Below are positions 15,275 through 30,847 of a stretch of DNA of 64,000 bases, one piece after another (position 1 is the first letter of the stretch; each line of letters starts with the position of its first letter). Origin of the DNA: Acidobacteriota bacterium (GTDB taxonomy: Bacteria > Acidobacteriota > Aminicenantia > Aminicenantales > Saccharicenantaceae); the NCBI GenBank assembly GCA_039683095.1, contig JBDKSB010000011.1, forward strand, positions 62,001 to 126,000. Direction: 5' to 3'. The position numbers and the translations under genes were made by a program. The notes beneath the pieces were generated by a model. It did not search any database and had not been told where the DNA came from. It saw nothing but the letters and a program-made list of their open reading frames with translations.

Positions 15275-17340
15275 TACGGCCTCCTAGGCTCCGGGGACTT
15301 CAGGAGCAGGCTCCGCTGCTCGTCGGCGGCCACCCCGAGGAAGAACTTGAGGGCCTCCTCCGAGCGGGAGGCCGGAAGGAGCGGCTCGAGCAGGCGGTAC
15401 TCGCGACGGTAGACGAGCGTCCGGCCTGCGGCTTCGACGCGGCTGGAGTAGGCGGCGAACCCGGCGTCGAGGGCGACCGGCCCGGGCGGGCTGTCGGCCG
15501 TCCGGCCGTCGGGGACCTCGATCGTGAATTCGTCCCGGGCCAGGACGGCTTCGCCGAGGTCGATCGGATGGCGGCGGGGCTTCCTGTCCTTCGGGGCAAG
15601 GTCGACGGCCTTGGAGCCGACGACCCGGGGCCGAACGACGAGGTAATTCCCGGCGCGCTTGGCGTAGCCGGCGGCCTGGACGCGATAGCTGACGACCAGG
15701 TCGCCCCGGTCGTCCTCGAGGTTCTTGAACTCGTAGCTTTGGAGGGTGAACGAGGCGAGCGAGCGGGCCAGGAAAGTCTCCAGGTACTTGCGGCGCTCCG
15801 CCTCGGTCGCGGCTTGGACGGCGTAGCGCAGGGAGTCGGCCTCGGAGCCGCGCCGGGTCTCGACGATCTCGCCGGCCAGGGTCCCGTCGGCCGTCAGGAC
15901 CAGCCGGCCCTTGCGGTCGAGGAGGTTGCCCTCGGGAGCCGGCCTGGGCAGGCGCATCAGCTCGCCGCCGCCTTCGGCCGCGAGCAGGCCGACGTTGTCC
16001 TGGAGATAGAAGGGCAGGCGGCCCAGCGGCGTCGTCGGCATGGTCGGATCGAAGACTAGGAGCCGGCCCAGGCGCGGGTGGCGGACCAGGCCGTCGAGGC
16101 CGGCCTCCGGGACGTCGTCGGGCAGGCGGATGGCCAGGATGACGTGGTTGAAGCCGCCGAGAGAGACGGGGGAGTCCGGGTTGACGAAGCCCCGGTTGAC
16201 GTTGATGACGATGAAGTGCGACCGGACGCCGATAGCTTCGAGGAGGGCGGCCAGAAGGGTCGCCTTGTCCTTGCAGTCGCCGTAGCGGTTGGCCAGGATG
16301 CCCGGGGCGGGGTGGGGCTGCAGGCCGCCGAGGCCGATCTGGATGGAGACGTAGCGGATCTCCTTCTGGGCGAACGCGGCCAGGGCCCGGATCTTCGACA
16401 GGGTGTCGGCCGCCCCGGCGCAGAGATCCCGGGCCTTTTGCCTGACCGTGTCGTCCGGAAGCCGGCGCGGCCCGCTCAGGTCCTCGTACCAGGCGCCCAT
16501 GTCGGCCCAGCCGGCGAAGGAGCGGATGCCGGGCCTCGCGGTCTTGAGCCGGACGAGGAGGCGCCTGGCCAACGTTTCCGGCATCGGCATGCGGGGCTCG
16601 TCGGCGATGGCCGGGATGTCGCGGACCTCGAAGACCAGGGCTTGGGGCGGCGGGCCGGTCACGCCGGCCGGCTCGACCGGCGGCATGTTGATCCAGGCCA
16701 ACTCAGGCTGCCAGCCGGCCGGCAGGGTCAGCGCGTAACGGGACCGGAGGACCGGGAATTCCCGCTGGAAGAGGCATTCGTCCTCGACGGCCGGCGGGGT
16801 GCGCTCCTCCTGCCATTCGAAGCCGACGACGCTGCCGACGTCCACCTCGGGCACGGACAGCATCATCATCCTGGCGTCCATGTACAGCGTGTCGGGGGCG
16901 AGGGAGGAGGAGATGACCTGCTTAATGGTCACCTGGCGCGTCGAGCCGCCCTTGTTTATGACCCAGCCGGACATGGATTTGATCTTGATGTCGTAGGCCG
17001 AAGCCAGGATCAGGCGCCGGGCGGGATCCACGCCGCCCGGCCGCAGGACCCGGGTGGCCCGGCGGCAGGTCGTCGTCAGGACGCCCCTGGAGTTGATGAC
17101 CGTCGACTGCTCGTCGAGGAGCACCAAGGCCTCGGCGTCCGGCGGGGGAGGGGCGGGAAGATCGCGGGCGGCCTCGTCGGCCAGCCACTGAGGCGGCTTG
17201 TCGTCGGCCGCGGCGCTTCCGGCGGCAGCGGGCGGGCGTCGGGCCGAAGACGCGTCCGATGAAACGAGCGCGGCGGAGAACGAGAAAAACGCAAGAAAGA
17301 GCGAAAGAACGACGCCTTCTACAGACCCGCGATCACTCAA
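15274..17340 (-). CDS. DUF3857/transglutaminase domain secreted protein
   Basis: A 688-residue exported protein with an N-terminal hydrophobic signal (~10-27), a DUF3857 domain, a transglutaminase core and a C-terminal beta region. The catalytic triad is visible: Cys356 in YGDCKDKA, His in GGFNHVI, and Asp in LVFDPTMP. Such proteins occur in secreted sets of Bacteroidota and Acidobacteriota-like bacteria; substrates are unknown. The best start is a TTG, because no ATG or GTG lies before the signal peptide, and the Shine-Dalgarno is poor. It is translationally coupled to the degenerate paralogue downstream. Confidence 0.82.
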   Translation of the reverse strand: MSDRGSVEGVVLSLFLAFFSFSAALVSSDASSARRPPAAAGSAAADDKPPQWLADEAARDLPAPPPPDAEALVLLDEQSTVINSRGVLTTTCRRATRVLRPGGVDPARRLILASAYDIKIKSMSGWVINKGGSTRQVTIKQVISSSLAPDTLYMDARMMMLSVPEVDVGSVVGFEWQEERTPPAVEDECLFQREFPVLRSRYALTLPAGWQPELAWINMPPVEPAGVTGPPPQALVFEVRDIPAIADEPRMPMPETLARRLLVRLKTARPGIRSFAGWADMGAWYEDLSGPRRLPDDTVRQKARDLCAGAADTLSKIRALAAFAQKEIRYVSIQIGLGGLQPHPAPGILANRYGDCKDKATLLAALLEAIGVRSHFIVINVNRGFVNPDSPVSLGGFNHVILAIRLPDDVPEAGLDGLVRHPRLGRLLVFDPTMPTTPLGRLPFYLQDNVGLLAAEGGGELMRLPRPAPEGNLLDRKGRLVLTADGTLAGEIVETRRGSEADSLRYAVQAATEAERRKYLETFLARSLASFTLQSYEFKNLEDDRGDLVVSYRVQAAGYAKRAGNYLVVRPRVVGSKAVDLAPKDRKPRRHPIDLGEAVLARDEFTIEVPDGRTADSPPGPVALDAGFAAYSSRVEAAGRTLVYRREYRLLEPLLPASRSEEALKFFLGVAADEQRSLLLKSPEPRRP

Positions 17341-17503: not shown

Positions 17504-17758
17504 ATGAAATTGTCGAGATCCACAACTGTCCTGATCAACGTCGCCCTGATCCTGCTCGTCGCCCTGCTGGCCAAGGCGCTCCTGACCGCTCCGGCCGGCG
17601 CCGGGGCCGCCGTGGCCCGGGAGTACAAGGTCGTGGCCTACCCATCGACGGGCCAGAACGTTGGGCAGATGCTCAACGAGTATGCCAACGACGGCTGGCG
17701 GTTCGTCTTCGCCTTCGAGTTCGGCCGCCCGCCGTACAGCCTGATCTTCGAGCGCTGA
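17504..17758 (+). CDS. Small membrane-anchored DUF4177-like protein
   Basis: An 84-residue protein with one N-terminal transmembrane helix (~9-31). Its short C-terminal domain, EYKVVAYPS...LNEYANDGWRF...LIFER, resembles DUF4177. A GGGGAG ribosome site precedes the ATG. It is the last chromosomal gene before the selC-integrated element. Function unknown. Confidence 0.7.
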   Translation: MKLSRSTTVLINVALILLVALLAKALLTAPAGAGAAVAREYKVVAYPSTGQNVGQMLNEYANDGWRFVFAFEFGRPPYSLIFER

Positions 17759-17796
17759 GGCGCCTTGGCGGTCGAGCGCCGATGCGCCTTGGCCGG

Positions 17797-17866
17797 GGGG
17801 GAGTGGCGGGAAGGTGTGGGAGTCGAACCCATCCGGGACGTCTATAGCCCCATACCGGATTCGAAG
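17797..17866 (-). repeat. Distal attachment-site copy: displaced 3' end of selC
   Basis: This 70-bp block matches the 3' part of the intact tRNA-Sec gene (20937-21006) at 67 positions; all three differences are transitions. It covers the encoded CCA, acceptor 3' strand, T arm, variable arm and anticodon stem-loop, then loses similarity. The 5' half of a tRNA is absent and the anticodon is altered, so it is not a second tRNA. It is the expected att scar where an element integrated at the anticodon loop of selC. Confidence 0.85.
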
Positions 17867-17930
17867 ACCCGAGAAGATCATGGCCAAGTTATTGAATTAT
17901 TATGGTGATACCCAGTTTTCCCGAGATCAA

Positions 17931-17951
17931 TGTGGCTAAATTGTGGCCAAG
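17931..17951 (+). repeat. Left copy of 21-bp element-end repeat (possible integrase arm site)
   Basis: A 21-bp sequence of the form TRTGRCYAAATT followed by RTGRCCAAG. It matches 20814-20834 at 16 positions, and all differences are transitions. It lies about 65 bp inside the left end of the selC element, and a further TGGCCAAG sits at 17881. Paired repeats inside both ends suit integrase arm-type binding sites; this is inferred. Confidence 0.45.
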
Positions 17952-18004
17952 TCGATGAAATCCGACGCCTTTCGCAACGACGCCAATTTCCAGTTCTCTG
18001 CGAA

Positions 18005-18637
18005 TTAGTCTGTGTAATAGATTATGACGAAATCATCGATAACCGGAATCCAGATCGCGCATCTCCCATAGCTAATAGGATTGACATCAAGGTCAATACC
18101 GACGACCCTTCCTTTCTCCATATCGAGCTTAAGCTTATCGACAATCTTCTGGGCTTCGGACAACGTGGCCTTTCCGGTATTGACGATCATCTTCCTTAAG
18201 TCAACATATGTCGTACAAGGATAAGGCGATTTCCCGCTCATCTGGTCCGAGGTATCCTGATTAAATGGGCGTAGGAAGGTTCTTAGGATGCCGCTAAAAT
18301 ACCATTCTCTCTTACATGATTCATAATTATTACAGTCTGACTGGTACCAGGGCTGGCTGAAAAGTCCGTCAGATGCCGCGTCCCCTTTTACGGTCATGTA
18401 GAAGATCCTCTTTCTTCTTGACAAAACCTCAAGAGTCCAAGAAAAGGGACTCTTAATATCCTTCCCAACCACATGAAGGACAATCTCCTCAGGCCTGCCG
18501 TCGCGAGTAAGGTCGACCTTCCGGACGATCGTCCTATCGATCCTTTCTGAAGCCTGATTCTGAATGGCGTTTGTCTGCGCCACTGAAGTTGCCATTCCCA
18601 CTGAAATGAGGAGCACTCCGGGCAGCGCAGCTCTCAT
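18005..18637 (-). CDS. Hypothetical exported protein (island gene)
   Basis: A 210-residue protein with a signal peptide (~1-20, ending near SVAQT). I do not recognise the family. It holds a VDLTRDGRPEEIVLHV segment of the kind seen in repeat-type beta domains that track a Ca-binding-like DxxxDG pattern, and four Cys in the middle. AGGAGAG precedes the ATG. Codon use is AT-richer than in chromosomal neighbours, consistent with transfer on the selC element. Confidence 0.65.
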   Translation of the reverse strand: MRAALPGVLLISVGMATSVAQTNAIQNQASERIDRTIVRKVDLTRDGRPEEIVLHVVGKDIKSPFSWTLEVLSRRKRIFYMTVKGDAASDGLFSQPWYQSDCNNYESCKREWYFSGILRTFLRPFNQDTSDQMSGKSPYPCTTYVDLRKMIVNTGKATLSEAQKIVDKLKLDMEKGRVVGIDLDVNPISYGRCAIWIPVIDDFVIIYYTD

Positions 18638-18687
18638 AAGGCTCTCTCCTGGGTTATGCGTTGACTAAAAGAAGACGAAGTCTTCAA

Positions 18688-19185
18688 CTACTCGCCACAC
18701 TCAAAGGGAATTGTTTTCGTAAGCGTTCCGATATCAACCTTTGATGCTGACATATTTTCCAGCGCAGCTGTGATCTTGACTTCCTCACGGCCTGTACCGC
18801 AGACCAAGAAGGGCAATATCACCTTGCCACCCTCATTAAAACAAAGGCTGAGCTCAAGCTTTTGGTCTAGAAGCGTTTTCTGGCTATCCGTCGCTATCAG
18901 GCTGAGCCTGCCCTCGCATTGAGTGAATCCAGGGCCGACTAGATCCACGAGCACCATTATCGCAGACGAAGGCTCCCTGGCTTCCCCCTCGCCAATGATG
19001 GTATTCCACAAAACATGGGTTTTGCCATCGAGAAGGTCGATTGGGTTGATCTTGCCTGTCGCATGGTAATAGAGATGTGCGTGAATGGCGGCCACCGAGT
19101 ATTTCCCGCCTTCTTGATTGGGATTGCCAGGGGCAGTTATGCCGAGAAGGAGCACAAATGCTAGAAGACCAATAGATATTTTCAT
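18688..19185 (-). CDS. Hypothetical exported protein (island gene)
   Basis: A 165-residue protein with an N-terminal signal (~1-19) and a mature part of no family I recognise. The ATG chosen has GGAG 9 nt upstream; an in-frame ATG five codons earlier is possible. Composition is AT-rich like the rest of the island, and it runs in the same direction as its neighbours with short gaps. Confidence 0.6.
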   Translation of the reverse strand: MKISIGLLAFVLLLGITAPGNPNQEGGKYSVAAIHAHLYYHATGKINPIDLLDGKTHVLWNTIIGEGEAREPSSAIMVLVDLVGPGFTQCEGRLSLIATDSQKTLLDQKLELSLCFNEGGKVILPFLVCGTGREEVKITAALENMSASKVDIGTLTKTIPFECGE

Positions 19186-19255
19186 TGCATAGTGCTCCAC
19201 TCTACGCTTTAGTGTTCTTTGCGAACCCCCACTCGACGTATCGCTTTGCTAGGTT

Positions 19256-19792
19256 TCATTTCTTTGCTTTTCCGCCTAGCCAGGAAAATGAGCGGATTAA
19301 TGATAAAAAGTCCTTCTCATACTTTGAGCTCTCTTCTTTCGGCCCATTTAGGACGAGAACCAAATAGAGAGGGGAATCCTCGTCAGGGTCGAGAAAACAG
19401 ACATAGTCAGTCGTTTTATCATCATATGAATATACCTTGGACAGGACCTTATAAGCCGGATCGTTTATAGGGAATTCATTTAGCTCGAGTTTCTTGTGCT
19501 GCTTTTTATAGTCTGCGACGTCAGAGTCCATCTTCTGCTGCAGAGTCTCTCCTCTTTTGCTATTTACCGAAATGTGCATAACAACTGGCGATTTGCGGAA
19601 GCTCTTTTTCCCCAAGCAGAAATAGACATTGACGCGATACCGATATGCATCTTCCGTATGGCCTGTCCAGCCCGTTGGTTCCTTTACATTGAACATCCAA
19701 CCATTCCCAAAAATAAGCAACTCGTCCATTTGTGAAGAACCTGCTGTCACGGCAAGAAAGAAGATTATGATGGACCAAAGGCCTTTTTTCAT
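19256..19792 (-). CDS. Hypothetical exported protein (island gene)
   Basis: A 178-residue protein with a clear signal peptide (MKKGLWSIIIFFLAVTAGSS) and a strong GGAGGAGG ribosome site. The mature region is lysine-rich and ends in an amphipathic FLSLIRSFSW helix, a layout seen in small lipid- or cell-envelope-associated proteins. No family is recognised. It starts 11 bp after the end of the recombinase fragment. Confidence 0.65.
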   Translation of the reverse strand: MKKGLWSIIIFFLAVTAGSSQMDELLIFGNGWMFNVKEPTGWTGHTEDAYRYRVNVYFCLGKKSFRKSPVVMHISVNSKRGETLQQKMDSDVADYKKQHKKLELNEFPINDPAYKVLSKVYSYDDKTTDYVCFLDPDEDSPLYLVLVLNGPKEESSKYEKDFLSLIRSFSWLGGKAKK

Positions 19793-19803
19793 TGATCCTC
19801 CTC

Positions 19804-19998
19804 CTATGACGCAGGCTGTGTAGTTTCGCTATTGGGATGACTGGGCCCGTCGATACCAGGCACAAAGAGCTCAGCAAGTACTTCGACCGCCCGGCGCTTA
19901 TTTTCAGGTGTCGGATGAGCATAGCGCATGGTCATTTTGATAGTCGCATGCCCTAGAATCTCCTTGACAGTTACTAAGTCGATCCCACCTATGACCAT
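19804..19998 (-). pseudogene. Tyrosine recombinase/integrase C-terminal remnant
   Basis: About 64 codons matching the end of a phage-type integrase: VIGGIDLVTVKEILGHATIK followed by the nucleophile segment MTMRYAH and the usual C-terminal helix. The LGH histidine region and catalytic tyrosine remain. The upstream arginine box and whole N-terminal part are gone; the frame meets a stop five codons before the first ATG, which is the stop of the adjacent gene. The fragment is therefore a deletion remnant of the enzyme that inserted the selC element. Confidence 0.8.
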
Positions 19999-20010
19999 AT
20001 AGGTAGCCGC

Positions 20011-20640
20011 TCACATTATGGGTGGATCAGTTTTCAGGGATGAGGTCCATAACTTCCCCAAAGGGATCTTACCTGAAGGAGAGGACGGGGGGGGTTCTGT
20101 GGCCACAATCCTGATGTATTTCACGATATCGTCAAATGTCTTTTTGTCTGAACGCTTATAGAACGGCTTGAGGATTCGAATTACTGCCCAATAGCCGCGA
20201 TAAGATAGGTAATAATTAAGGAACTTTGACACGACAACTTCCCCGCTAGTGGTCCTAAATAAAGGGTCCTTAATTACGATCTCTTTTATTGCTGCATCTC
20301 CGACCTCATATTGTTTGATGTCTGCTTTAAGGCGTAAATTCTCCTTCTTCGCATAATATTCTCTAAGAGCTTTTGAGTCTCCTTCGCTGGTAGCTTTTTC
20401 CAGCTCGGCCGTAATGCCAAAGTCCGTTTTGCCGTCTCGTAGTTCGAGAAAACTCTCGCTTTCGAGTTTCTTATTCGACGAGAATTGGGGTGATACCCGT
20501 ATCTCAACCCCCCATGAGCTACCCGGAAGGACAAGTCTATAGGTCTTCAGTTCATTTGGCCTTTCTTGTGAGGCTTTGACTCCATCAGGATAGCTAGATA
20601 ATGCAACAGCGATCAGAGCGTAGAAAAAGACCTTCTTCAT
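20011..20640 (-). CDS. Hypothetical exported protein (island gene)
   Basis: A 209-residue protein with a signal peptide (MKKVFFYALIAVALSSYPDG) and a mature domain not recognised by me. The ATG used follows GAGGGTGAG; an upstream in-frame ATG would add 16 hydrophilic residues. Its last codons abut the broken recombinase, so its 3' end may have been created by the deletion that removed the integrase N terminus. AT-rich island composition. Confidence 0.6.
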   Translation of the reverse strand: MKKVFFYALIAVALSSYPDGVKASQERPNELKTYRLVLPGSSWGVEIRVSPQFSSNKKLESESFLELRDGKTDFGITAELEKATSEGDSKALREYYAKKENLRLKADIKQYEVGDAAIKEIVIKDPLFRTTSGEVVVSKFLNYYLSYRGYWAVIRILKPFYKRSDKKTFDDIVKYIRIVATEPPPSSPSGKIPLGKLWTSSLKTDPPIM

Positions 20641-20943
20641 ATTCTCACCCTCTCTGAGTACATTTATGCGATTGAAATTATTCTCCACATGCTGGACGCC
20701 TCAGTCAATGATGATCATAGTCACGAATCATTCCTATCCTAAGGCTTTTTGCGTATGGTAACTTGATTGACAGGCTCTTAATCAAATGCGTTAGAAAAGA
20801 TACCTAAAATCACTATGACCAAATTATGACCAAGAATGTCCAAAACGGTGCTAAATCGTACTAGTGCGTACTAAACAATTAGCAAATAATTACAGAACCG
20901 ATGGACTTCCTAAAGCACTGATAAATATCTCTAATAGGGGGAG
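20641..20943. other. AT-rich non-coding end of the selC element
   Basis: I see no gene here. The stretch holds the right copy of the 21-bp repeat, a short duplicated CGTACTA motif (GTACTAGTGCGTACTAA), and the junction to the 3' end of selC. It probably contains the integrase-binding region of the original attachment site. Confidence 0.5.
20814..20834 (+). repeat. Right copy of 21-bp element-end repeat
   Basis: Partner of the sequence at 17931-17951, in the same orientation and differing only by transitions. It lies about 100 bp inside the right end of the selC element. Internally it is itself two copies of ATGACCAA 10 bp apart, a roughly helical spacing that would suit a protein-binding array. 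Confidence 0.45.
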
Positions 20944-21038
20944 TGGCGGGAAGGTGTGGGAGTCGAACCCACCCGGGACGTTTATAGCCCCATACCGGAT
21001 TTGAAGTCCGGAAGGATCACCGGATCCTTCACCCTCCC
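20944..21038 (-). tRNA. selC: tRNA-Sec (anticodon TCA)
   Basis: A 95-nt gene, the same length as E. coli selC, with encoded CCA. It has an 8-bp acceptor stem (GGGAGGGT paired with ACCTTCCC, one G-U), a long variable arm, T loop GGTTCGACTCC, and anticodon loop CTTCAAA with TCA at 21002-21004. The elongated acceptor and D arms are those of selenocysteine tRNA. Its 3' part is the copy brought in by the integrated element. selA, selD and selB are ~10 kb away. Confidence 0.95.
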
Positions 21039-21208
21039 GCGGGCGAAGTGATGTTAATCCGTCCGGCCAGATGAGTCAAGGCGCGCCGGCCGGCTCCCTC
21101 AGGACCTTGACATCCCCATCGGGCCAGGAATATCCTCAATTCGCGCCGCGGCCGGGTCCCCGGATCGAGCGGCGCGAAACGATGGCTCAAAGTCACAAGG
21201 GGGGAATC

Positions 21209-24200
21209 ATGCGGCGCTTGATGCTCGTTCTGGCGGCGGTCGTTATTCTGTCGGCGGGGGCCGCTCCGGCGGCGGACGAGACCCCGGTCCTGGCCAAGGC
21301 GCCGACCCTAAGCCGGACGGCGGTCGTTTTCGAGTACGGCGGGTACCTCTGGAGCGTTCCCCGCGAGGGCGGGCCGGCCCGGCAGCTCACGACAGGCGGC
21401 CATGAGGGCTTCCCGTTCTTCTCGCCGGACGGCCGGTGGATCGCGTTCTCGGGGACGTACGACGGCAACGCCGAGGTCTACGTGATGCCCGCCGCCGGCG
21501 GCGTGCCCAGGCGGCTGACCTGGCATCCCGACATGGACATCGTCGATGGCTGGACGCCCGACGGCAAGAGCGTCCTCTTCAAGTCGCCGCGCGAGGCCTA
21601 CGCCGATCTCGATCGGCTCTACACCGTGCCCATCGAGGGCGGCCCGGCCGCGGCGCTGCCGATGTGGCGCGGCGAGGACGCCTGCTTTTCGCCGGACGGG
21701 ACGCGCATCGCTTACGTGCCCAACACGGTCTGGCAGACCTCCTGGAAGCGCTACCACGGCGGGCAGACGACGCCCATCTACATCGTCCGGCTGAGCGATC
21801 TCGCGCTCGAGAAGCTGCCGCGGGAGAACTCCAACGATTCGCGGCCGGCGTGGTACGGAGACAAGGTCTATTTCCTGTCCGACCGGAACGGGCCGAAGAC
21901 GCTCTTCGCCTACGACACGAAGACGAAGGCCGTCACCCAGGTCCTCGAGAACGCGGGCCTCGACCTGAAGTCGGTCTCGGCCGGGCCCGACGCCCTGGTC
22001 TACGAGCAGTTCGGCGGCATCTTCGTGTTCGACCCGGCTTCGGGGAGTTCGCGGCGCGTTCGGATCGAAATCGCCGGCGACCTGCCCGCGACCCGGGCGC
22101 ATTACGATAAAGTGACGGGCCGGATCCAGAACGCGGACATCTCGCCGTCGGGCGCCAGGGCCGTATTCGAAGCGCGCGGCGAGATCCTATCCGTCCCCGC
22201 CGAAAAAGGGGACTTCCGCAACCTGACCAGGACGACGGCCGTGGCCGAGCGCGATCCGGCCTGGTCGCCGGATGGGAAGTCCATCGCCTTCTTTTCCGAC
22301 GAGTCCGGGGAATACGCGCTCCATATCGTCGATCAATCCGGGCTCGGCCCGGCGAGGCGGATCGGCCTGGGCGAGCCGCCGTCATATTTCTACAAGCCGA
22401 TCTGGTCGCCCGACGGCAGGAAGATCGCCTGCACGGACAAGCGGCTCAACCTCTGGTACGTTGACGTCGACAAGGGGACGCCGGTCAAGGTCGCCACCGA
22501 CCGGTTCGACGATCCGTCGTCGGCCATGAACCCGGCCTGGTCGCCCGACAGCCAGTGGCTGACCTACACCAAGGAGCTCGAGAACCATTTCCACGCCGTG
22601 TTCGTCTATGCCCTGGCGAGCGGGAAGGAATGGCGGATCACGGACGGCATCAGCGATGTCCGCTATCCCGCCTTCGACAAGGGCGGCAAGTACCTGGTCT
22701 TTGCCGTCAGCACGGACGTCGGGCTGTCGGTTGGCTGGCTCGATCTTTCGAGCTATCAACACCCTATGCTGCGGAGCGTATACGCCGCGGTCCTGAAGAA
22801 GGGCGATCCGTCGCCCGTGCCGCCGGAGAGCGATGAGGAAAAGGTCGAGCCGGCGAAGAAAGAGGACGAGGGCCCGGCCAAGGGCGCCGGCGCGGACAAG
22901 GGACAGGCGGCCAAGGGCAAGGAGGCGCCGGCCGAGGGGCCGGCCAAGGTCGCCATCGACTTCGACGGCCTCGGGCAGAGGATCGTCGCCCTGCCCATCC
23001 CGGCCGCGAACTACGTCGGCCTGAGCGCCGGAAAGGCCGGAACGCTGTTCCTGGCGGAGATCCCGGACGTGCCGCGCTTCGATGCGCCGGGGACCGCGTC
23101 CATCTCGAAGTTCGACCTGACGACGAGGAAGACGGAGCCGTTCGTCGCGGGCGTCGGAACGTTCGTCGTTTCCGCAAACGGCGAAAAGGCGCTATATTCC
23201 CAGGGCCCGGTCTGGGCCATCACGGGGACGGGGGGTCCGGCGAAGCCGGGCGAAGGCGCCCTCAAGCTGGACCAGGCGGAGGTCTACGTCGATCCGCGGG
23301 CCGAATGGGCCCAGATGTATCATGAGGTCTGGCGGATCGAGCGGGACTTTCTCTACGACCCGAACCTCCACGGGCTGGACCTGAAGGCCGCGGAAGCCGG
23401 GTACGCGCCGTATCTCCAGGCGGTCGGCGGCCGGGAGGACCTGAACTACCTGTTCGACGAGATGCTCGGCGAGATCACGGTCGGGCACATGTTCATCGGC
23501 GGCGGCGATTCTCCGCAGCCCAGGCGTGTCGCCGGCGGGCTCCTCGGGGCGGATTACCGCGTCGAGAACGGGCGCTTCCGCTTCGCCCGGGTGTACAACG
23601 GCGAGAACTGGAACCCCGACCTGCGGGCGCCGCTCACCCAGCCGGGCGTGGACGTCAAGGCGGGGGAGTACCTCATCGAGGCGAACGGCCGGGACGTCCG
23701 CCCGCAGATCGAGGTCTACGGCTACTTCGAGAACACGGCCGGCAAGCAGATCACGATCAAGGTCGGGCCGTCCCCGGACGGCAAGGACGCGCGTTCGCTG
23801 ACCGTCGTGCCGGTCGCGAGCGAGTTCGCCCTGCGCAACCGCGCCTGGGAAGAAGACAACCGCCGCAAGGTCGACGAGCTGAGCGGCGGGAAGCTGGCCT
23901 ACGTTCACGTGCCCGATACGGCCGCCGGGGGCTATGTGAACTTCAACAGGTTCTATTTCGCCCAGGTCGACAAGCAGGGAGCGATCATCGACGAGCGGTA
24001 CAACCACGGCGGCCAGATCGCGGATTACATCGTCGACATGCTGAAGCGGCCGCTGCGCAACGCGGCCGTCACCCGCGAGGGGGAGAAGCTCACGTCGCCG
24101 GCGGCCCAGATCTACGGGCCCAAGACGATGATCATCAACGAGATGTCCGGCTCTGGCGGCGACGCGCTGCCGTGGATGTTCCGCCAGGACAGGATCGGGC

Positions 24201-24499
24201 CGCTCGTGGGGATGCGGACCTGGGGCGGCCTGGTCGGCATCTGGAACTATCCGCCGCTCATGGACGGCGGGTCGGTCACGGCCCCGCGCGGCGCCATCTA
24301 CGGGCTGAACGGCGATTGGGAAGTCGAGAACCGCGGCATCGCGCCCGATATCGAGGTCGAGAACGACCCGGCCTCGGTCGCGGCCGGACGCGACCCGCAG
24401 CTCGAGAAGGCGGTGGCGGTCACGCTCGAAGCCCTGGCAAAGAACCCCGTGGTCATCCCGGGGCCGCCGCCCTACCCGAATTACCACAAGAAGAAATAG
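21209..24499 (+). CDS. Secreted Tricorn-type S41 peptidase
   Basis: A 1096-residue exported peptidase. A signal peptide (~1-22) is followed by beta-propeller repeats with FSPDG/WSPDG signatures across residues ~60-520. A Lys/Glu/Ala/Pro-rich linker lies near 528-580, then come a PDZ-like region and the S41 C-terminal protease core. NEMSGSGGD around residue 980 contains the likely nucleophilic Ser. Tricorn enzymes cut peptides into short fragments, here probably in the periplasm, supplying amino acids such as glutamate. The ATG at 21209 has GGGGGG at the right distance and begins the signal peptide; upstream in-frame starts would bury it. Confidence 0.9.
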   Translation: MRRLMLVLAAVVILSAGAAPAADETPVLAKAPTLSRTAVVFEYGGYLWSVPREGGPARQLTTGGHEGFPFFSPDGRWIAFSGTYDGNAEVYVMPAAGGVPRRLTWHPDMDIVDGWTPDGKSVLFKSPREAYADLDRLYTVPIEGGPAAALPMWRGEDACFSPDGTRIAYVPNTVWQTSWKRYHGGQTTPIYIVRLSDLALEKLPRENSNDSRPAWYGDKVYFLSDRNGPKTLFAYDTKTKAVTQVLENAGLDLKSVSAGPDALVYEQFGGIFVFDPASGSSRRVRIEIAGDLPATRAHYDKVTGRIQNADISPSGARAVFEARGEILSVPAEKGDFRNLTRTTAVAERDPAWSPDGKSIAFFSDESGEYALHIVDQSGLGPARRIGLGEPPSYFYKPIWSPDGRKIACTDKRLNLWYVDVDKGTPVKVATDRFDDPSSAMNPAWSPDSQWLTYTKELENHFHAVFVYALASGKEWRITDGISDVRYPAFDKGGKYLVFAVSTDVGLSVGWLDLSSYQHPMLRSVYAAVLKKGDPSPVPPESDEEKVEPAKKEDEGPAKGAGADKGQAAKGKEAPAEGPAKVAIDFDGLGQRIVALPIPAANYVGLSAGKAGTLFLAEIPDVPRFDAPGTASISKFDLTTRKTEPFVAGVGTFVVSANGEKALYSQGPVWAITGTGGPAKPGEGALKLDQAEVYVDPRAEWAQMYHEVWRIERDFLYDPNLHGLDLKAAEAGYAPYLQAVGGREDLNYLFDEMLGEITVGHMFIGGGDSPQPRRVAGGLLGADYRVENGRFRFARVYNGENWNPDLRAPLTQPGVDVKAGEYLIEANGRDVRPQIEVYGYFENTAGKQITIKVGPSPDGKDARSLTVVPVASEFALRNRAWEEDNRRKVDELSGGKLAYVHVPDTAAGGYVNFNRFYFAQVDKQGAIIDERYNHGGQIADYIVDMLKRPLRNAAVTREGEKLTSPAAQIYGPKTMIINEMSGSGGDALPWMFRQDRIGPLVGMRTWGGLVGIWNYPPLMDGGSVTAPRGAIYGLNGDWEVENRGIAPDIEVENDPASVAAGRDPQLEKAVAVTLEALAKNPVVIPGPPPYPNYHKKK

Positions 24500-24503
24500 C
24501 GGT

Positions 24504-24533
24504 TTGACATCCCCGGCCGGCCGGGGGTAGGAT
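24504..24533 (+). promoter_or_regulatory. Putative promoter with embedded palindrome
   Basis: TTGACA and TAGGAT are separated by 18 nt, ahead of the small membrane-protein gene. The spacer is mostly the perfect 16-bp palindrome CCCCGGCCGGCCGGGG (24511-24526). That palindrome could end transcription from the peptidase gene or bind a regulator; there is no T-run after it. Confidence 0.4.
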
Positions 24534-24599
24534 TATGGACATAAAGAAAAGGGGCCTCTTTTCCTGTCCGAAGACCGCGATCTTCTCAAGGAGGAGGAA

Positions 24600-25016
24600 A
24601 TGAACTGGAAACGCTTTTGGCTGGCAAGCGCGGCGGCCTTCGCCGCCGTCGAGGCGATCGGTCTCCTGGTCGACACCGTCTTCATGAAGCAGGATTATGA
24701 GTCGCTGAGGAGCCTGTGGCGGCCGAACATGATGTCCAGGCTCTGGGTGACGTACGTCGTCGGAGCGATGGCGGCGCTGCTGTTCACCTATATCTTCGTC
24801 AAAGGCCGGGAAGGCAAGGGGATCCTCGAAGGCGTGCGCTACGGGATCATCATCTGGCTGTTCGTCAGCGTGCCGATGGGCGTGTCCACCTGGGTGACCT
24901 TCCCGATCGGATATCGGATCATCCTGAAGGGATTGATCTTCGGACTGTTGGAGATGCTGGCCGCGGGGGTCCTGGTGGCCGTCATCTACAAGCCTAAAGC
25001 GCCCGTCAAGGCCTAG
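24600..25016 (+). CDS. Small integral membrane protein
   Basis: A 138-residue protein with four predicted membrane helices (about residues 6-24, 48-68, 82-102 and 106-132) and a basic C-terminus. An AAGGAGGAGG ribosome site precedes the ATG. I cannot place it in a named family, and neighbours give no functional hint. Confidence 0.75.
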   Translation: MNWKRFWLASAAAFAAVEAIGLLVDTVFMKQDYESLRSLWRPNMMSRLWVTYVVGAMAALLFTYIFVKGREGKGILEGVRYGIIIWLFVSVPMGVSTWVTFPIGYRIILKGLIFGLLEMLAAGVLVAVIYKPKAPVKA

Positions 25017-25072
25017 GGAACAGATCGTCCCGTCCGGTCCATCCTACCCGGCCTCGCCGGCTGGGGGCGGGC

Positions 25073-26722
25073 CTACCTGATGTCCCGGAAGATCCTGACG
25101 AACGAGACGACGGCGAAGACGAGCGACGCCGCATAGCCTAGAAGGCCAAGCAGGGAGAAGCCCCGGACCAGGGGGGGCAGGTTGCTCCGGACGACGAGGG
25201 CCGAGGCGACGAGGACGCCGGCTACGAGGACGCCCGCGGCCAGGCGGCTGCTGGCCTTCTTGATCCCGAGGTTGATCTCTTCCAGGCCCCGGTGGTCGAC
25301 CTTCAGCTCGGCCTTCCCATTGACGATACGATAAAGGAACCGCATCAGATCGCCGGGGAACGATTTCATCATCCAGAAGTTCTTCCGGAAGAATTCGCCT
25401 ATGTCCTTGACGACCTCGGTCGGCTTGAACTCCTTCTCCAGGGCTTGCCGGGCATAGGGCATCAGGCTCCGGGCGGGATTGAATCCCGGCTCGAGCTGCC
25501 GGCCGACGCCCTCGAGGATGATGAGGCAGCGTACGAGCAGGATGAAGTCCGAAGGCATCCGGACCCGATGCTTCTGGATCAGGCCGATAAACGTGGTGAG
25601 GCCGGCCGCCAGGTCGATATGATCAAGATCGGCGCCGTAATATCGGTCGAAGAGATCGTCCAGATCCTCCTTGAACGCCCTCAGATCGGCGTCCTCGGGG
25701 ACCATGTCCCCGTCCCGGAGGACGGAGACGAGATCCGGGACGTCGCGGTAGGCGACCGCGATCAGGACCCGGTCGAGCAGGCCGCGCGCTTCCGGGTCGA
25801 GAACGCCGACCATTCCCACGTCGATGAAGCAGACGACATCGTCCTTCATGATGATCAGGTTGCCCTTGTGGGGATCCGCGTGGAAGAAGCCGTCCTCGAA
25901 GATCTGCTTGAAGACGGCCCGGACGCCCCGCTCCGCGACCCGGCGCCGGTCGTGCGCGGTGTCGCTGCGCAGCAGCGAGTCGATCCCGGCCCCGTGGATG
26001 TACTCGAGGGTCAAGACGTCCCGGCCCGAGTGCTCCCGGTAGACCCTCGGGAAATAGACCCCGGGATCGCCGGCGAAGTTCTTCCGGAATCGCTCGTAGT
26101 TGTCGGCCTCCAGCCGGAAATCTATCTCCTTCTCGATCGACCGCTCGAACTCGGCGACCAGGCCGGGCAGATCGTATCTTCGGAGCTCGGGGAAATGCTT
26201 GTCCAGGAGGCGGGCCAGCAGGCGCATCAGATCCAGGTCCCCCCGGATGGCCTTTTCCAGGCCCGGCCGCTGGACCTTGACGGCCACCCTTTCTCCCGAG
26301 GCCAGACGGGCGTGATGGACCTGGGACAGTGACGCGGCGGCAAAGGGAACCGGGTCGAACTCCGGAAAAGCCGCCTTCACCGGCTTCTTGAGCGTCCGGG
26401 CGATGATCTTTTCCGCCTGGGCGGAGGGGAAGGTCTCGGCCCTTTCCTGGAGCTTCTCCAGCTCCTGGATGATGTCCCGGGGAAGGATGTCCGGATGGCA
26501 GCTCAGGGCCTGCCCGAGCTTGACATAGGTCGGGCCGAGCTCCTCGAGGATGGCCCTGACCTTCTGTCCCAGGGAAAGAGGGCTCCGACCCCTTTTGGCG
26601 AAAAGCCTTTTCGGCAGTCTCAGCTTTTCGGCGACCTCCCGCAGGCCGTACTTGGACAGAACGAGGCCTATATCCTTCAGGCGGACGAAGGTTTCCTCCC
26701 CGGCGAACGAAAATCCCCCCAT
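25073..26722 (-). CDS. ABC1/AarF (UbiB-type) atypical kinase
   Basis: A 549-residue UbiB-family protein-kinase-like ATPase, usually linked to isoprenoid quinone or lipid metabolism at the membrane. Family motifs are all present: YVKLGQALS (KxGQ), the Ala-rich loop AAASLSQVH, HADPHKGNL and FIDVGMVG. Two C-terminal transmembrane helices (~495-540) anchor it. There is almost no leader: the -10 of its promoter ends 6 nt before the ATG, so the transcript may be leaderless. No other quinone gene is nearby, so the pathway is not shown by context. Confidence 0.92.
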   Translation of the reverse strand: MGGFSFAGEETFVRLKDIGLVLSKYGLREVAEKLRLPKRLFAKRGRSPLSLGQKVRAILEELGPTYVKLGQALSCHPDILPRDIIQELEKLQERAETFPSAQAEKIIARTLKKPVKAAFPEFDPVPFAAASLSQVHHARLASGERVAVKVQRPGLEKAIRGDLDLMRLLARLLDKHFPELRRYDLPGLVAEFERSIEKEIDFRLEADNYERFRKNFAGDPGVYFPRVYREHSGRDVLTLEYIHGAGIDSLLRSDTAHDRRRVAERGVRAVFKQIFEDGFFHADPHKGNLIIMKDDVVCFIDVGMVGVLDPEARGLLDRVLIAVAYRDVPDLVSVLRDGDMVPEDADLRAFKEDLDDLFDRYYGADLDHIDLAAGLTTFIGLIQKHRVRMPSDFILLVRCLIILEGVGRQLEPGFNPARSLMPYARQALEKEFKPTEVVKDIGEFFRKNFWMMKSFPGDLMRFLYRIVNGKAELKVDHRGLEEINLGIKKASSRLAAGVLVAGVLVASALVVRSNLPPLVRGFSLLGLLGYAASLVFAVVSFVRIFRDIR

Positions 26723-26728
26723 GGCCCG

Positions 26729-26757
26729 AGTATAGTGGTTTGGGCGGATGGTTTCAA
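26729..26757 (-). promoter_or_regulatory. Promoter of the AarF gene (leaderless type)
   Basis: TTGAAA-N17-TATACT on the minus strand, a near-consensus sigma70 site. Only six bases separate the -10 from the ATG, so the expected transcription start coincides with the start codon. Confidence 0.65.
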
Positions 26758-26762
26758 CCGCC

Positions 26763-26791
26763 TTGACATCGTCGCCACGGGCCCTTATAAA
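26763..26791 (+). promoter_or_regulatory. Promoter of the TPR lipoprotein gene
   Basis: TTGACA-N17-TATAAA, 11 of 12 consensus bases, 44 bp ahead of the ATG. Its -35 is only five bases from the -35 of the divergent AarF promoter, so the two may compete or share a regulator. Confidence 0.7.
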
Positions 26792-26835
26792 GAGAATGAA
26801 ACCAAGGTCCGGGGGGACCGGCCGGGAGAACGAAT

Positions 26836-27594
26836 ATGGGAATTCCTCGCGTTGTGGCCCTCGTCGTCTGCATCGTCGCGGCGGCCGCCTGCGCCGGCCG
26901 TCCGGCTCCGTCCGCGCCGGGCGGCGCAGCGGGCCAACCGGTCTTCGAGCGGGCCCTTGACCAGGGCGTGCTGTTCCTGGCCCGGGGCGAATATGGCAAG
27001 GCCGCGGCCGCGTTCCGGACGGCCGTGGAGGCCAGGCCCGATTCGGCCAAGGCCCGCAATTACCTGGGGCTCTGCTATTTCCATGACAAGGACTATGCCC
27101 TGGCCAGGGAGCAATTCGAAAAAGCGATAGCCGCGGACGCGTCGTTCGCCACGGCCTACAACAACCTGGCCGGGGTCTGCTCCATCAAGAACGAGTTCGC
27201 CCGGGCCGCAGAGCTTTACAAAAAGGCTCTGGCGATCTCGCCGGACATGGTGTCCGCCAACTACAACCTGGGCGTCCTGCTCTGCAACATCGGCCGCGCC
27301 AAAGAGGGGTTCGGGTATATCTCCCGCGGCATCGCCCTCGACCCGGATTACCTGGAGAAGAACGCGGAGATGACCGCGGCCTTCTCTTCCCGGTCCGGCG
27401 ACATGAAGGAAGCCTACTTCGCCTATGCCAGGGCCTACGCGGCCGCCGGCGACATCGGCAAAACCGTGGAATACCTGAACAAGGCCCGGGACGCCGGCTT
27501 CACCGACTGGTCGAGGATCCTCCGCGACCAGGAGTTCGTGAAGGTCCTCGGCGACCCGAGGATCAAGAGCTTCGTCAGGGGCCCGGGCCTCTGA
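26836..27594 (+). CDS. TPR-repeat lipoprotein
   Basis: A 252-residue lipoprotein. The signal peptide ends in a lipobox with Cys19 (AAAC-AG). At least four tetratricopeptide repeats follow (~residues 38-215), for example GLCYFHDKDYALAREQFEKA. TPR lipoproteins scaffold envelope complexes; the partner is not evident. It ends eight bases from the convergent NYN gene. Confidence 0.85.
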   Translation: MGIPRVVALVVCIVAAAACAGRPAPSAPGGAAGQPVFERALDQGVLFLARGEYGKAAAAFRTAVEARPDSAKARNYLGLCYFHDKDYALAREQFEKAIAADASFATAYNNLAGVCSIKNEFARAAELYKKALAISPDMVSANYNLGVLLCNIGRAKEGFGYISRGIALDPDYLEKNAEMTAAFSSRSGDMKEAYFAYARAYAAAGDIGKTVEYLNKARDAGFTDWSRILRDQEFVKVLGDPRIKSFVRGPGL

Positions 27595-27601
27595 GCGCGG
27601 G

Positions 27602-28120
27602 TCAAAGCCCGAATCTCTTTTTGAGCTCGGCGTCGATCTCCGCGGCCGCCTTCCGGCCGAGGCCCTTGGCTTCGGCCGGGCTCTTGGCCCCCTCGCCGCC
27701 GCCGGCGGGAGCGGCCGGACGCGCTTTCGTGACCGCGAGGAAGCCGGAAGGCCTGACGGCCGCGCCATGGGCCCGGCAGTTGTTGCCGACGTAGTTGTCG
27801 TCCGAGACCACGGTGACGTCGGCCTTCCGGCCCTTGAATTCCCGGACCAGGCGGACGATCTCGGCGTCGCCGCCGTGGGCGGTGAGCGAATAAACGCAGC
27901 GGATCCCGGCGATCCGCTCGCCGCGGCCGCCCGAATGCTCGAACGCGCCGTCGAAGACGATCACGCACTCGACCCCTGGGTGCTTCCGGCTCCAGCCGGA
28001 AACGCGAAGGGCCAGCTGATTGCGGGCGTTCTGGAGCCCGCCGTCCAGGCCGGCTTCGAGATCGGGCAGGCGATGGATGATGTTGTACCCGTCGACGAGA
28101 AGGAGGCGGCCGGCGGGCAT
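27602..28120 (-). CDS. YacP-like NYN-domain protein (putative RNase)
   Basis: A 172-residue cytoplasmic protein with the PIN-like NYN fold. Acidic residues that would bind metal are in LLVDGYNII (near residue 9), VIVFDGAF (~55) and VVSDDNYVG (~105). YacP relatives are candidate ribonucleases acting on rRNA or mRNA. The alanine/lysine-rich C-terminal 40 residues look unstructured. The start overlaps the stop of the upstream ABC ATPase gene (TGATG), placing it last in a three-gene operon with a transporter. Confidence 0.85.
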   Translation of the reverse strand: MPAGRLLLVDGYNIIHRLPDLEAGLDGGLQNARNQLALRVSGWSRKHPGVECVIVFDGAFEHSGGRGERIAGIRCVYSLTAHGGDAEIVRLVREFKGRKADVTVVSDDNYVGNNCRAHGAAVRPSGFLAVTKARPAAPAGGGEGAKSPAEAKGLGRKAAAEIDAELKKRFGL

Positions 28121-28827
28121 CAGGCGGCTCCCCCGGTCCGGCCCCGGGCCAGCGCGTCGAGGAACCGCAGTCTCGATGCCGCGTCGGCGGGGATGTCCGC
28201 GTGAAGCTCGGCCGAGCCGTCATGCACGGTCACGGCGCCGGTCGCGAGGCCGGCCAGCGGCTCGAGCGAGTGCGAGACCACGACCATGGTCGCCCCGGCG
28301 GCCGTCCGCTCTCCGATCCAGCGCAGGACGTCGTCGGCGATCTGCCGGTCGAGCGAGTCGAGCGGCTCGTCCAGGAGGACATGATCGGGCCGTCCGACAA
28401 AGGCCGCGGCGAAGAGCGCCCGTTTCCGCTGCCCGGAGGACAGCTCCCGGACCGAACGTCCCGATTCGGCGGCCAGCCCGAAGCGGTCGAGGGCCTGGGC
28501 GCCCGCCCGCCGCGGCTCGCCCCGGAGGCGGCAGACCAGGCGGAGAACGTCGTCCAAAGTGGCATAGGGCGTGATGTCGGGGAATTCGGGCAGATAGGCC
28601 AGCCGCCGCCGCGCCTCCACCTCCCGCTCCCAGAGATCGAACCTGTCCACCAGGATGCGGCCCCGGTCCGGGCGCTCCACGCCGGCCGCCAGCTTGAGCA
28701 GCGTGCTCTTGCCGCAGCCGTTCGGACCGACGAGAAGGGTCAGGCCCGGGCCCAGCGCGAGCGAGGATTCGCGGACGACGGGACGTCCCGGCTCGTAGCC
28801 GAAGGTGACGCCTTCGAAGACCATCAT
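28120..28827 (-). CDS. ABC transporter ATP-binding protein
   Basis: A 235-residue ABC ATPase with Walker A GPNGCGKST (~residue 35), signature LSSGQ, Walker B HVLLDEP and the switch His in VVVSHS. It pairs with the upstream membrane protein, with which it shares a four-base ATGA overlap. Substrate unknown; single ATPase plus polytopic partner suggests an export or ABC-2-like system. Confidence 0.9.
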   Translation of the reverse strand: MMVFEGVTFGYEPGRPVVRESSLALGPGLTLLVGPNGCGKSTLLKLAAGVERPDRGRILVDRFDLWEREVEARRRLAYLPEFPDITPYATLDDVLRLVCRLRGEPRRAGAQALDRFGLAAESGRSVRELSSGQRKRALFAAAFVGRPDHVLLDEPLDSLDRQIADDVLRWIGERTAAGATMVVVSHSLEPLAGLATGAVTVHDGSAELHADIPADAASRLRFLDALARGRTGGAA

Positions 28828-30074
28828 GATGCGCTCCAGGAAAGGGGATCGCCGGCGCCCGAGTGATGGCGCTCGACCCAGAGGGTCGGCTTGAAGCGCC
28901 GTTCTGCGTTACGGGCCAGGACGAAAGCGACGGGCGACGCGGCGGCCAGCGCGAACGACGCCGGCGGCAGGAGGGCGATGACCAGCGCCAGGATGGCGCC
29001 CTCGACCGCGACCTGTCCGAACGCTCCGAAGGGACGGTCGGCCGCCTGGCGCATGGCCGCGGCGCCGCGGATCGCGAGCCAGGCCAGCGGGCCGGCCAGG
29101 TAGACCGCTTCCCGGGCCGGGCGCCCGAGCAGGGCCAGGCCTCCGGCCAAGGGCAGGGCCAGCATCGCGAGGAGGAGGGCGTCGTCCCGGACCCGGGCGG
29201 CCGCCGACCGGGGCAGCGAATGCAGCCAGGGCCAGGCGGGCCGGCGCGAGGCCAGAACGTCCGCGACGACGGCGATGAACACGACCAGGGCCAGCGCCAG
29301 GCCGATGAGCGAAACGGCGAAGGCGGGACGCGCCGCGAGGTCGTTGTTCCTCAGGAAGAGCCAGGCGGCGCCGAGGGCGGCCGCGGCGGGGATGTAGGCG
29401 ATCAGGATCGGCCCGCGGACGGCCCGCAGGGCCAGGGCAGGAAAGAACCCCCGGGCCGGCAGGCTTCGCCGGGGCCCGCGCCGGTTGCCCGGCGCGACGT
29501 CCAGACCGGGCCGGGCCATCGAGATCGCCAGGACGGCCGCGGCCAGCCCCACGATGACCGTATCGCCGGCGAACGAGAAAAAGCAGGCGGCCAGGGGGAC
29601 GAGCCGCATCCAGGGATAGCGTCGCGCCGGAAGCCAGGCCAGGCCGGCCGCCGCCGCGCCGATGAGCAGGCCGGCGATCCGGATCGCGACGCGCCGCGGA
29701 TCGGGCGCCGCGACCACCCCGGCCAACCCGCCCAGGACGACGAGCATCGGCGTTTCGGCGACGATGACCGAGAGAACGGTGGACAAGCGCCGCATCCCGG
29801 CCCGGGCCGGAAGGGAGCGGGCCCAGCCGCCGCTGCCCGCCGCTATCCGCGGCACGACGATCCGGGCCAGCCCCAAAAGAAGGACCGATCCGGCCAGGCC
29901 GGACTCCACCGGGCTGCCGTCGACGAAGAGGATCCTGGCCAGTTCCAGGCTGAACTCGGGCCGGAGGATGTAATAGAGAAAGAGACAAACGGCCAGCACC
30001 GGGGCCAGGACGCGCAGGGCCAGCCGGGCCCCGACCCGGAGATGGAAGAGGAACAAGGCCGGCTCGGGCTTCAT
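28824..30074 (-). CDS. Polytopic membrane subunit of the ABC transporter
   Basis: A 416-residue protein with about ten hydrophobic helices and no recognised family beyond a permease-like layout. It is the first gene of the operon with the ABC ATPase and the NYN protein. There is no Shine-Dalgarno, and a perfect TATAAT ends nine bases before the ATG, so the message may be nearly leaderless. Confidence 0.78.
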   Translation of the reverse strand: MKPEPALFLFHLRVGARLALRVLAPVLAVCLFLYYILRPEFSLELARILFVDGSPVESGLAGSVLLLGLARIVVPRIAAGSGGWARSLPARAGMRRLSTVLSVIVAETPMLVVLGGLAGVVAAPDPRRVAIRIAGLLIGAAAAGLAWLPARRYPWMRLVPLAACFFSFAGDTVIVGLAAAVLAISMARPGLDVAPGNRRGPRRSLPARGFFPALALRAVRGPILIAYIPAAAALGAAWLFLRNNDLAARPAFAVSLIGLALALVVFIAVVADVLASRRPAWPWLHSLPRSAAARVRDDALLLAMLALPLAGGLALLGRPAREAVYLAGPLAWLAIRGAAAMRQAADRPFGAFGQVAVEGAILALVIALLPPASFALAAASPVAFVLARNAERRFKPTLWVERHHSGAGDPLSWSAS

Positions 30075-30083
30075 CTGCGGCTT

Positions 30084-30096
30084 ATTATACCGTATA
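30084..30096 (-). promoter_or_regulatory. TATAAT box with overlapping TATACCGTATA palindrome
   Basis: The perfect -10 of the ABC operon (minus strand, 30084-30089) overlaps an 11-bp palindrome, TATACCGTATA (30086-30096). The same sequence, as its reverse complement, occurs in the promoter of the GntR regulator gene (2681-2691). A -35 is not evident. Control of both sites by one regulator is a hypothesis. Confidence 0.45.
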
Positions 30097-30144
30097 AAGC
30101 CGGAACCGGGCAGCCGGGATGTGCCGCCGGCGCCGGTCGCCCCT

Positions 30145-30654
30145 TTATTCGGCCAGCATGGCCGCCAGCCTGTCGAAGGACTCGTTCCAGCCCCGCCGGG
30201 CGCCCTCCATGTCCCGGCCGGGCGGCAGGCCGGCGTGCTTGAGGGTCAACCTGGTCTTCCCGGCGTCTTCCTCGAAGATCACGGTCATGAGCATCTCGAG
30301 AGGGAAATCGTCGCTCAGGCCGTAATGGGACGCGGGGACGACATTGCCCTTATCGTCGGCGAAGCTGTCGGTGGCCACCAGCCGCTGGAGGGGGACGATC
30401 TCTCGGAAAAATCCCGTGCTCCAGGTCTCCTTGCCCTCCGGGGAGCGCAGGCAGTAGAGGTACGAGCCGCCGACGCGCAGGGAGACGCGGGCGACGGGCG
30501 CGGCGTATCCTTTGGGCCCCCACCAGCGGGCGATGAGGTCGGGGGTCGTCCAGGCCATCCAGACCTTCTGGAGGGCCGCGTCCAATTCCCGCTCGATCGT
30601 CAGGATCGAGCCGGGGGAAGGCGTCGCCAGGGCCTCGCGCTTCTTATCGTTCAT
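30145..30654 (-). CDS. AHSA1/START-like (SRPBCC) protein
   Basis: A 169-residue SRPBCC-fold protein of the Activator-of-Hsp90-homologue type, with the typical VWMAWTTPDLIARWWGP near residues 32-48. These proteins form a hydrophobic pocket and have varied roles. The ATG has GGAGG seven bases upstream; an earlier in-frame start would add 12 residues. Ligand unknown. Confidence 0.88.
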   Translation of the reverse strand: MNDKKREALATPSPGSILTIERELDAALQKVWMAWTTPDLIARWWGPKGYAAPVARVSLRVGGSYLYCLRSPEGKETWSTGFFREIVPLQRLVATDSFADDKGNVVPASHYGLSDDFPLEMLMTVIFEEDAGKTRLTLKHAGLPPGRDMEGARRGWNESFDRLAAMLAE

Positions 30655-30847
30655 GGGATCCTCCGTCCGAATAAAATCCTTCTCGGCCATCGGACATGCG
30701 GGAAACTTGCCAAGTGCCGCGGTTCGGACGGGAAAAAGACCTTCGCCTGAAAAGACCGACCAGGGACCGCGGAAGAGAGGGGCCTGGCGGCTGCGCCAAT
30801 CCCGCGGCGTGGGACGCTTTTCCTGCCGGGACGGAACGGCGGCCGGC

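Follow-up and report, generated by a model that had tools for sequence, protein, structure and literature searches.

How can a gene that a cell holds in one copy be entered by mobile DNA and remain whole? The question is raised by selC, which encodes the selenocysteine tRNA (tRNA-Sec) and is needed for selenoprotein synthesis, in a 64,000-nucleotide (nt) stretch of an Acidobacteriota genome of the order Aminicenantales. This stretch, hereafter the window, covers positions 62,001 to 126,000 of contig JBDKSB010000011.1 (G000:C11:62001-126000; the genome, G000, comprises 13 contigs and 3.29 Mb). Beside the intact selC lies a segment of DNA low in guanine plus cytosine (GC), at the far end of which stands a second, displaced copy of the 3' end of the gene. 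We conclude that positions 17797-20943 are very probably the relic of a small tRNA-targeting integrative element that recombined in the anticodon loop, apparently swapped the 3' half of selC and later lost most of its integrase. Such a single-copy selC would show to what extent an important RNA gene can be rewritten by mobile elements and still stay intact.

A displaced tRNA half bounds a low-GC segment

A direct repeat of 76 nt brackets the segment (17797-17872 and 20937-21012; 93% identity, start-to-start distance 3140), and its copies agree at 67 of the first 70 bases. The original prediction, made from the sequence, had described a 70-bp repeat with 67 matches around 3.1 kb of low-GC DNA, and recomputation confirmed it. 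The intact selC (20944-21038, minus strand, anticodon TCA), the sole tRNA that ARAGORN calls in the window, contributes its 3' part as the right copy, and the repeat extends to 20937, 7 bp past the CCA of the gene. The left copy (17797-17872, minus strand) is a displaced selC 3' end that receives no ARAGORN tRNA call; we read it as the attachment-site half at the integrase-side junction. On inspection of the sequence, homology stops within the anticodon loop, beyond GAAG, where the left copy diverges, and this is where the crossover had been predicted to fall. The fragment lies downstream of selC on the same strand, the correct side for a tRNA-targeted island.

The repeat is not a product of chance, because a 54-nt probe for the selC 3' half found no match at up to 18 mismatches in five mononucleotide shuffles of the 64-kb window; a 34-nt probe for the 5' half, at up to 10 mismatches, found one match in five such shuffles. 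With 10 mismatches in 34 allowed, no further selC 5' half occurs in the window itself, which does not have the layout of an element that carries the 5' half. When the 76-nt repeat was used as a query, 7 of 34 genomes of the family matched it, and only G000 and the relative G004 did so in two places.

Base composition sets the segment apart as well. GC content is 45.8% between the repeat copies (3.1 kb), compared with 67.4% over 3 kb on the 5' side of selC and 68.3% on the other side, and GC at third codon positions is 0.47-0.56 in the open reading frames (ORFs) of the segment, compared with 0.89 and 0.91 in two flanking genes and 0.91 in a third, the tricorn-type gene at 21071. The composition shift anticipated at the repeat boundaries is therefore present in both measures.

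Within G000, selC is the single-copy tRNA-Sec gene, the only one found: it scores 81 bits against the Rfam tRNA-Sec model, the runner-up among 14 matches in the genome scores 49 bits, and the four lower matches checked (ranks 2, 3, 4 and 6) are tRNA-Ser. A candidate selC promoter, read from the sequence and an alignment, lies at 21051-21079 on the minus strand (-10 box TAACAT at 21051-21056, 17-nt spacer, -35 box TTGACT at 21074-21079). Folding selC and the rejoined empty site as single strands threw no light on the question.

An integrase stump and its cargo

The original prediction linked the element to a tyrosine integrase, and a C-terminal remnant of one is found inside the segment. An ORF of 64 amino acids (aa; 19804-19998, minus strand) aligns with positions 143-170 of the 172 in the Pfam Phage_integrase profile (E 2.4e-5; 24.6 bits, slightly below the curated cut-off of 27.1), matches a PHROG integrase at E 3.2e-12 and shares as much as 82% identity over 49 aa with integrases of at least 345 aa from other genomes of the order. 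The gene is truncated, because tblastn with 25 integrases of at least 300 aa recovers this C-terminal stretch of the segment and otherwise just matches at E 0.09-0.96.

Four cargo ORFs accompany the stump, all on the minus strand. They encode proteins of 210 aa (18005-18637), present only in G000 and in a sister element in G004 among 93 genomes of the order searched; 170 aa (18688-19200); 178 aa (19256-19792), with an 88% identical homolog beside selC in the relative G002; and 225 aa (20011-20688), abutting the stump and having a lipoprotein-like N-terminus that scores below cut-off. None of the four has a match above the Pfam cut-off or a PHROG match at E 0.01. PHROG likewise gave no virion or phage replication genes in the segment, which as a relic may have lost them, and one full-length integrase homolog had no relative among viral contigs in a search that covered close relatives. 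A phage origin was set aside on the viral-contig result and the lack of PHROG matches for the four cargo proteins. Searched with blastn against 50,697 phage records, window positions 17700-21100 matched at the tRNA-Sec end alone, in two records that both belong to one Pf8 phage.

The element had also been called decayed, which holds for the integrase, cut to a stump, but not for the 178-aa gene, which is conserved: between G000 and G002 its synonymous divergence (dS) is 0.326 and its nonsynonymous divergence (dN) 0.064, giving a dN/dS of 0.196. It appears to have been kept by purifying selection while the integrase decayed. For the chromosomal DUF4177 gene that flanks the element (17504-17758, plus strand), dS between the same genomes is 0.296 and dN/dS 0.268. 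The similar dS of these two genes suggests that the element already sat in selC before G000 and G002 split.

Candidate arm-type sites at both ends

A 21-nt motif, TRTGRCYAAATTRTGRCCAAG, occurs inside each end of the segment in one orientation (TGTGGCTAAATTGTGGCCAAG at 17931-17951 and TATGACCAAATTATGACCAAG at 20814-20834, both on the plus strand) and is exact to its consensus in both places. The paired motifs resemble arm-type sites of lambda-like integrases, to which the integrase would have bound. The motif had no match in 100 shuffles, a test that is not independent because the consensus was derived from the two window sites themselves. Independent support comes from recurrence in relatives: the motif is found in G004 (L159:3163; 3 mismatches, 100 nt inside the displaced end), in G011 (L124:8054; 2 mismatches, ~110 nt past selC) and in G053 (L205:16674; 2 mismatches, near one end of an intact relative element), and 300 shuffled elements contained none with 3 mismatches or fewer. 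When 4 mismatches are allowed, 7 of 18 sequences scanned have it.

Relatives with and without the element

Element presence varies among close relatives. In G004, selC lies on contig C23, and contig C56 carries a second selC 3' half lacking its 5' half (2994-3062); next to it come a 210-aa gene homolog (44% identity, one stop) and then an integrase C-terminal stump 88% identical to that of the window over 49 residues. The G011 sequence is 76% identical to the window along a 254-nt stretch that takes in selC and ~125 nt of the element; its contig stops 238 nt past selC. G002, the nearest relative by sequence, has a selC identical at 99 of 99 bases, adjoined by the 178-aa gene, and has no displaced selC 3' half. 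An intact relative element in G053 (L205:9662-16875, on G053:C115) spans ~7 kb and encodes a 350-aa integrase; its attachment repeat, a 102-nt direct repeat (89% identical, 7112 apart), takes in the 3' end of a thioesterase gene together with the last part of the integrase gene. This element also carries a DUF3800 gene and weak replication-initiation-like and helix-turn-helix matches. Related elements have hit selC repeatedly in this lineage, with related pieces in G002, G004 and G011.

Some relatives were expected to have an uninterrupted selC, and G009 does: its selC has a 3' flank of 66% GC, its genome has one match to the repeat, and no displaced half occurs within 19 kb, so the segment is not common to all relatives. 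G003 and contig C23 of G004 likewise have selC without a displaced half along the same stretch. The further expectation, that such a selC would be followed directly by the gene at 17504, was not borne out. Among the loci examined, the DUF4177 gene has a homolog in G002 only, and the predicted empty site goes unseen because a metallo-beta-lactamase-fold gene and the 178-aa gene there lie between that homolog and selC. A scan of 82 loci (L036-L117, including 80 of 150 tricorn-gene loci) for selC halves, at up to 9 mismatches in 34 for the 5' half and 14 in 54 for the 3' half, yielded no named empty site.

Weighing the explanations

We envision the following course of events. A tyrosine integrase would have recombined the attachment site of the element (attP) with selC in the anticodon loop. 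Because attP would have carried a copy of the selC 3' half, the gene would have been restored at the right junction, host 5' half joined to element 3' half, and the original 3' half would have been displaced 3.1 kb downstream to become the left copy. Later deletion of the integrase down to its C-terminal end would have left the element immobile by itself, with at least one cargo gene (178 aa) remaining under purifying selection. The idea of an integrative element in selC is upheld by both junctions, the paired arm-like repeats, the integrase stump, the sister elements, the uninterrupted selC of G009 and the composition shift. Several points weigh against it: the integrase remnant amounts to the last ~50-64 residues, the arm motif is absent from 11 of the 18 sequences scanned and its zero chance expectation is not independent of its consensus, an empty site with selC adjoining the DUF4177 gene was seen in no relative examined, and the three base differences between the repeat copies do not cleanly tell which copy is foreign.

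A segment this short, with no working integrase and with cargo of unknown family, might instead reflect a duplication of the selC 3' end, by chance or homologous recombination, in which unrelated AT-rich DNA was captured between the copies and no site-specific integration took place. That the match ends in the anticodon loop, that an integrase stump and a paired arm motif lie between the copies, that the same layout recurs in G004:C56 and that the same arm stands beside selC in G011 make such a duplication highly improbable. The segment could also be a hitcher, or cis-mobilizable element, that is not dead and keeps its ends and arm sites for an integrase encoded elsewhere. Both attachment ends and the arm motifs appear complete, 11 Phage_integrase matches occur in G000 at E 0.01, the window stump among them, and two further insertions at selC in G002 have no integrase on their contig; however, the dS of the 178-aa gene is close to that of its chromosomal neighbor (0.33 and 0.30, G000 versus G002), which suggests old vertical inheritance, the nearest full-length homologs of the stump belong to other genera, and its other matches in its own genome are at most 61% identical. 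Mobilization in cis is therefore unlikely, in our judgment.

Another alternative concerns which copy is native. The displaced copy shares GGATGGG with the uninterrupted selC of G009 and AGACG with G003, G004 and G011; at this second differing site G009 has AAACG, like the present selC, so no relative matches the displaced copy throughout. The third difference falls in the anticodon, which in the displaced copy reads TCG. Together these differences lean toward an element-borne present 3' half without settling the matter, and, being partly informative, they leave some room for a present 3' half that is native and a left copy that is an element leftover, for example after excision and reinsertion or some other order of events. 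We consider that quite unlikely, given that anticodon-loop integration leaves the host 3' half beside the element arm and that, by eye, 12 of 33 related integrase ORFs have a tRNA 3' half directly downstream, the layout seen here. Returning to integration with exchange of the 3' half, we infer, on the standard mechanism, an element origin for the selC 3' half now in use, and by the same inference the host selenium system would depend on DNA that the element brought.

That system is present in the window: selA (34035-35435), selD (32776-34038) and selB (30848-32773), all on the minus strand ~10 kb upstream of selC, match their profiles with scores above the curated cut-offs. Formate dehydrogenase alpha, the one family tried as a selenoprotein, was rejected: G000 has three matches, all below the family cut-off, and selenocysteine use is not demonstrated because none of them contains an internal stop.

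Relation to known systems

The window element is a known kind of event with an ordinary mechanism; the lineage around selC is more interesting. The tRNA-targeted islands described in Islander share with it a regenerated tRNA gene at one end, a displaced fragment at the other and an anticodon-loop crossover; they have a tyrosine integrase, of which the window element retains a C-terminal stump only (PMC4383910). By the counts quoted in that report, the anticodon-loop class makes up 2083 of 3919 islands, and the fragment is a 3' one in 3760 islands and a 5' one in 159 (PMC4383910). A review of archaeal recombinases states that recombinant tRNA genes driven by an integrase promoter are seldom met in bacteria (PMC8371274), and with the Islander counts this marks the 5' type as known but rare. 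The pTN3-like integrases that it covers are archaeal, whereas the window element is of the ordinary 3' type (PMC8371274).

The target gene itself is familiar. selC is described as a well-known integration target of Escherichia coli islands (PMC6174562), which share it with the window element, as do the Pf-tRNA-Sec prophages of Pseudomonas; the attachment site reported for the latter, however, is the 27-bp 3' end of tRNA-Sec and not the anticodon loop (PMC7549136). Phages have also been reported that disrupt a tRNA and supply a complete one in its place (PMC10865867). For Aminicenantes and Acidobacteria, none of the papers listed in literature searches appears, from its title and abstract opening, to concern elements of this kind.

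Related integrases carry either tRNA half

Used as a query against 94 genomes of the order, the window integrase stump matched 43 places, of which 33 were read downstream of the integrase; the other ten, some with an ORF below 50 aa, fell outside this reading. In nine of the 33, including selC in G049 and a tRNA-Arg in G000, ARAGORN finds a complete tRNA whose start lies between 54 nt ahead of the integrase stop and 12 nt past it, and at a tenth (L197) the tRNA lies inside the end of the integrase ORF. By eye, 12 have a tRNA 3' half, one of them worn, downstream of the integrase but no proper 5' half, and the remaining 11, including the window and G004 stumps, have neither within the stretch read. 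In both layouts the integrase is on the same side of the crossover, and the part that differs is the arm that mimics the tRNA. As judged from these sequences, some related integrases in the order carry the 3' half of a tRNA and others the 5' half. The neighboring elements offer a natural series for studying how integrases come to carry one tRNA half (3' or 5') instead of the other, and how this affects the promoter of the tRNA.

We also considered whether the two types form separate integrase clades and rejected this. On a tree of 25 integrases, 17 labeled (11 three-half, 6 five-half) and 8 unlabeled, the labels cannot be placed with fewer than 3 changes, at least 2 of them imposed by well-supported branches; the labels are clustered nonetheless, with 12 and 15 of 500 shuffles equally low. 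Where a complete tRNA abuts or overlaps the integrase end, as in the nine cases above, little or no room is left for a separate tRNA promoter, and the G049 tRNA-Sec seems to have none of its own.

G049 contains three strong tRNA-Sec matches. At one locus (L133:13923-15187, G049:C38), a complete integrase gene ends ~10 nt before selC. At another (L135:4764-7299, G049:C26), ARAGORN calls a tRNA-Sec-like gene as tRNA-Leu with anticodon TAA, and a second 3' half with a shared 3' flank is also present, with a gene that by eye is sigma-70-like in between. In G000, another integrase stump of the same family stops 12 nt short of a complete tRNA-Arg (TCG) (L214:9123-9491, G000:C7), and two convergent integrase genes enclose, by eye, one stranded tRNA-Arg (ACG) 3' half (L215:6885-9344, G000:C5). 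The displaced selC anticodon in the window (within 17857-17866), TCG, is the same as that of tRNA-Arg(TCG), a tRNA that follows 4 of the 33 integrase ORFs read, and the anticodon arms of selC and tRNA-Arg(TCG) can be one base apart (GGACTTCAAATCC and GGACTTCGAATCC). For these integrases, selC may be a near-cognate target.

Apparent insertions on the 5' side of selC

G002 has two extra selC 5' halves (L122:15192-15225 and 16995-17028; 1 and 0 mismatches in 34), stranded in tandem upstream of its working selC (L122:12689-17028, G002:C9). Both continue into TTCAAAAGCG and then into arms with TGTGCA repeats; over 88 nt the two arms share 72% identity (E 5e-10). Promoter-like sequence, TTGACA-17-TACCAT, precedes the working selC and the middle 5' half, and the outermost 5' half has no -35 box, as expected if that copy is no longer used. 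Of the genes in the two intervals, one encodes an S41 peptidase and two have no Pfam family; at E 0.01, Phage_integrase finds nothing on contig C9. Across 93 genomes of the order, the arm query matched at two places in G002, and its other matches were weak ones in two more genomes (E 0.003 and 0.006, over 30-37 nt). As we read these sequences, selC of G002 has been invaded from both sides, with 5' insertions that would mirror the window element by supplying a new 5' half and stranding the old one. The working selC of G002 shares its 3' half with the window and, if the 5' insertions are read correctly, both of its halves look replaced by element-side DNA.

From this we tentatively propose, as a view that we hold to be quite possible though a little short of probable, that selC in this genus is a mosaic, its 3' half, 5' half and promoter having been replaced piecewise by elements from both sides, with one integrase family carrying either half as an evolvable choice and with 5'-side insertions perhaps having separated selC from selB. 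If true, restoration of a tRNA gene from its 3' or its 5' side would be an evolvable trait and not a fixed property of an integrase, and the working selC of G002 would have gained, along with an element-side 5' half, the promoter that goes with it. A sequence in G003 (G003:C7:106767-106802; L168:1501-1536) has 3 mismatches to the selC 5'-half pattern; having no recognizable 3' half or promoter-like context, it was not accepted as a further 5' half and was left undecided. A U-G pair in the anticodon stem of G003 selC could be a mosaic scar or a single point mutation and was not used.

The position of selC varies in these genomes: it directly follows selB in G053, G036, G054 and G013, and the distance between the two genes is ~3.5 kb in G040 and ~10 kb in the window (21038-30848). 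Members of the genus also differ in the genes that lie between selC and selB.

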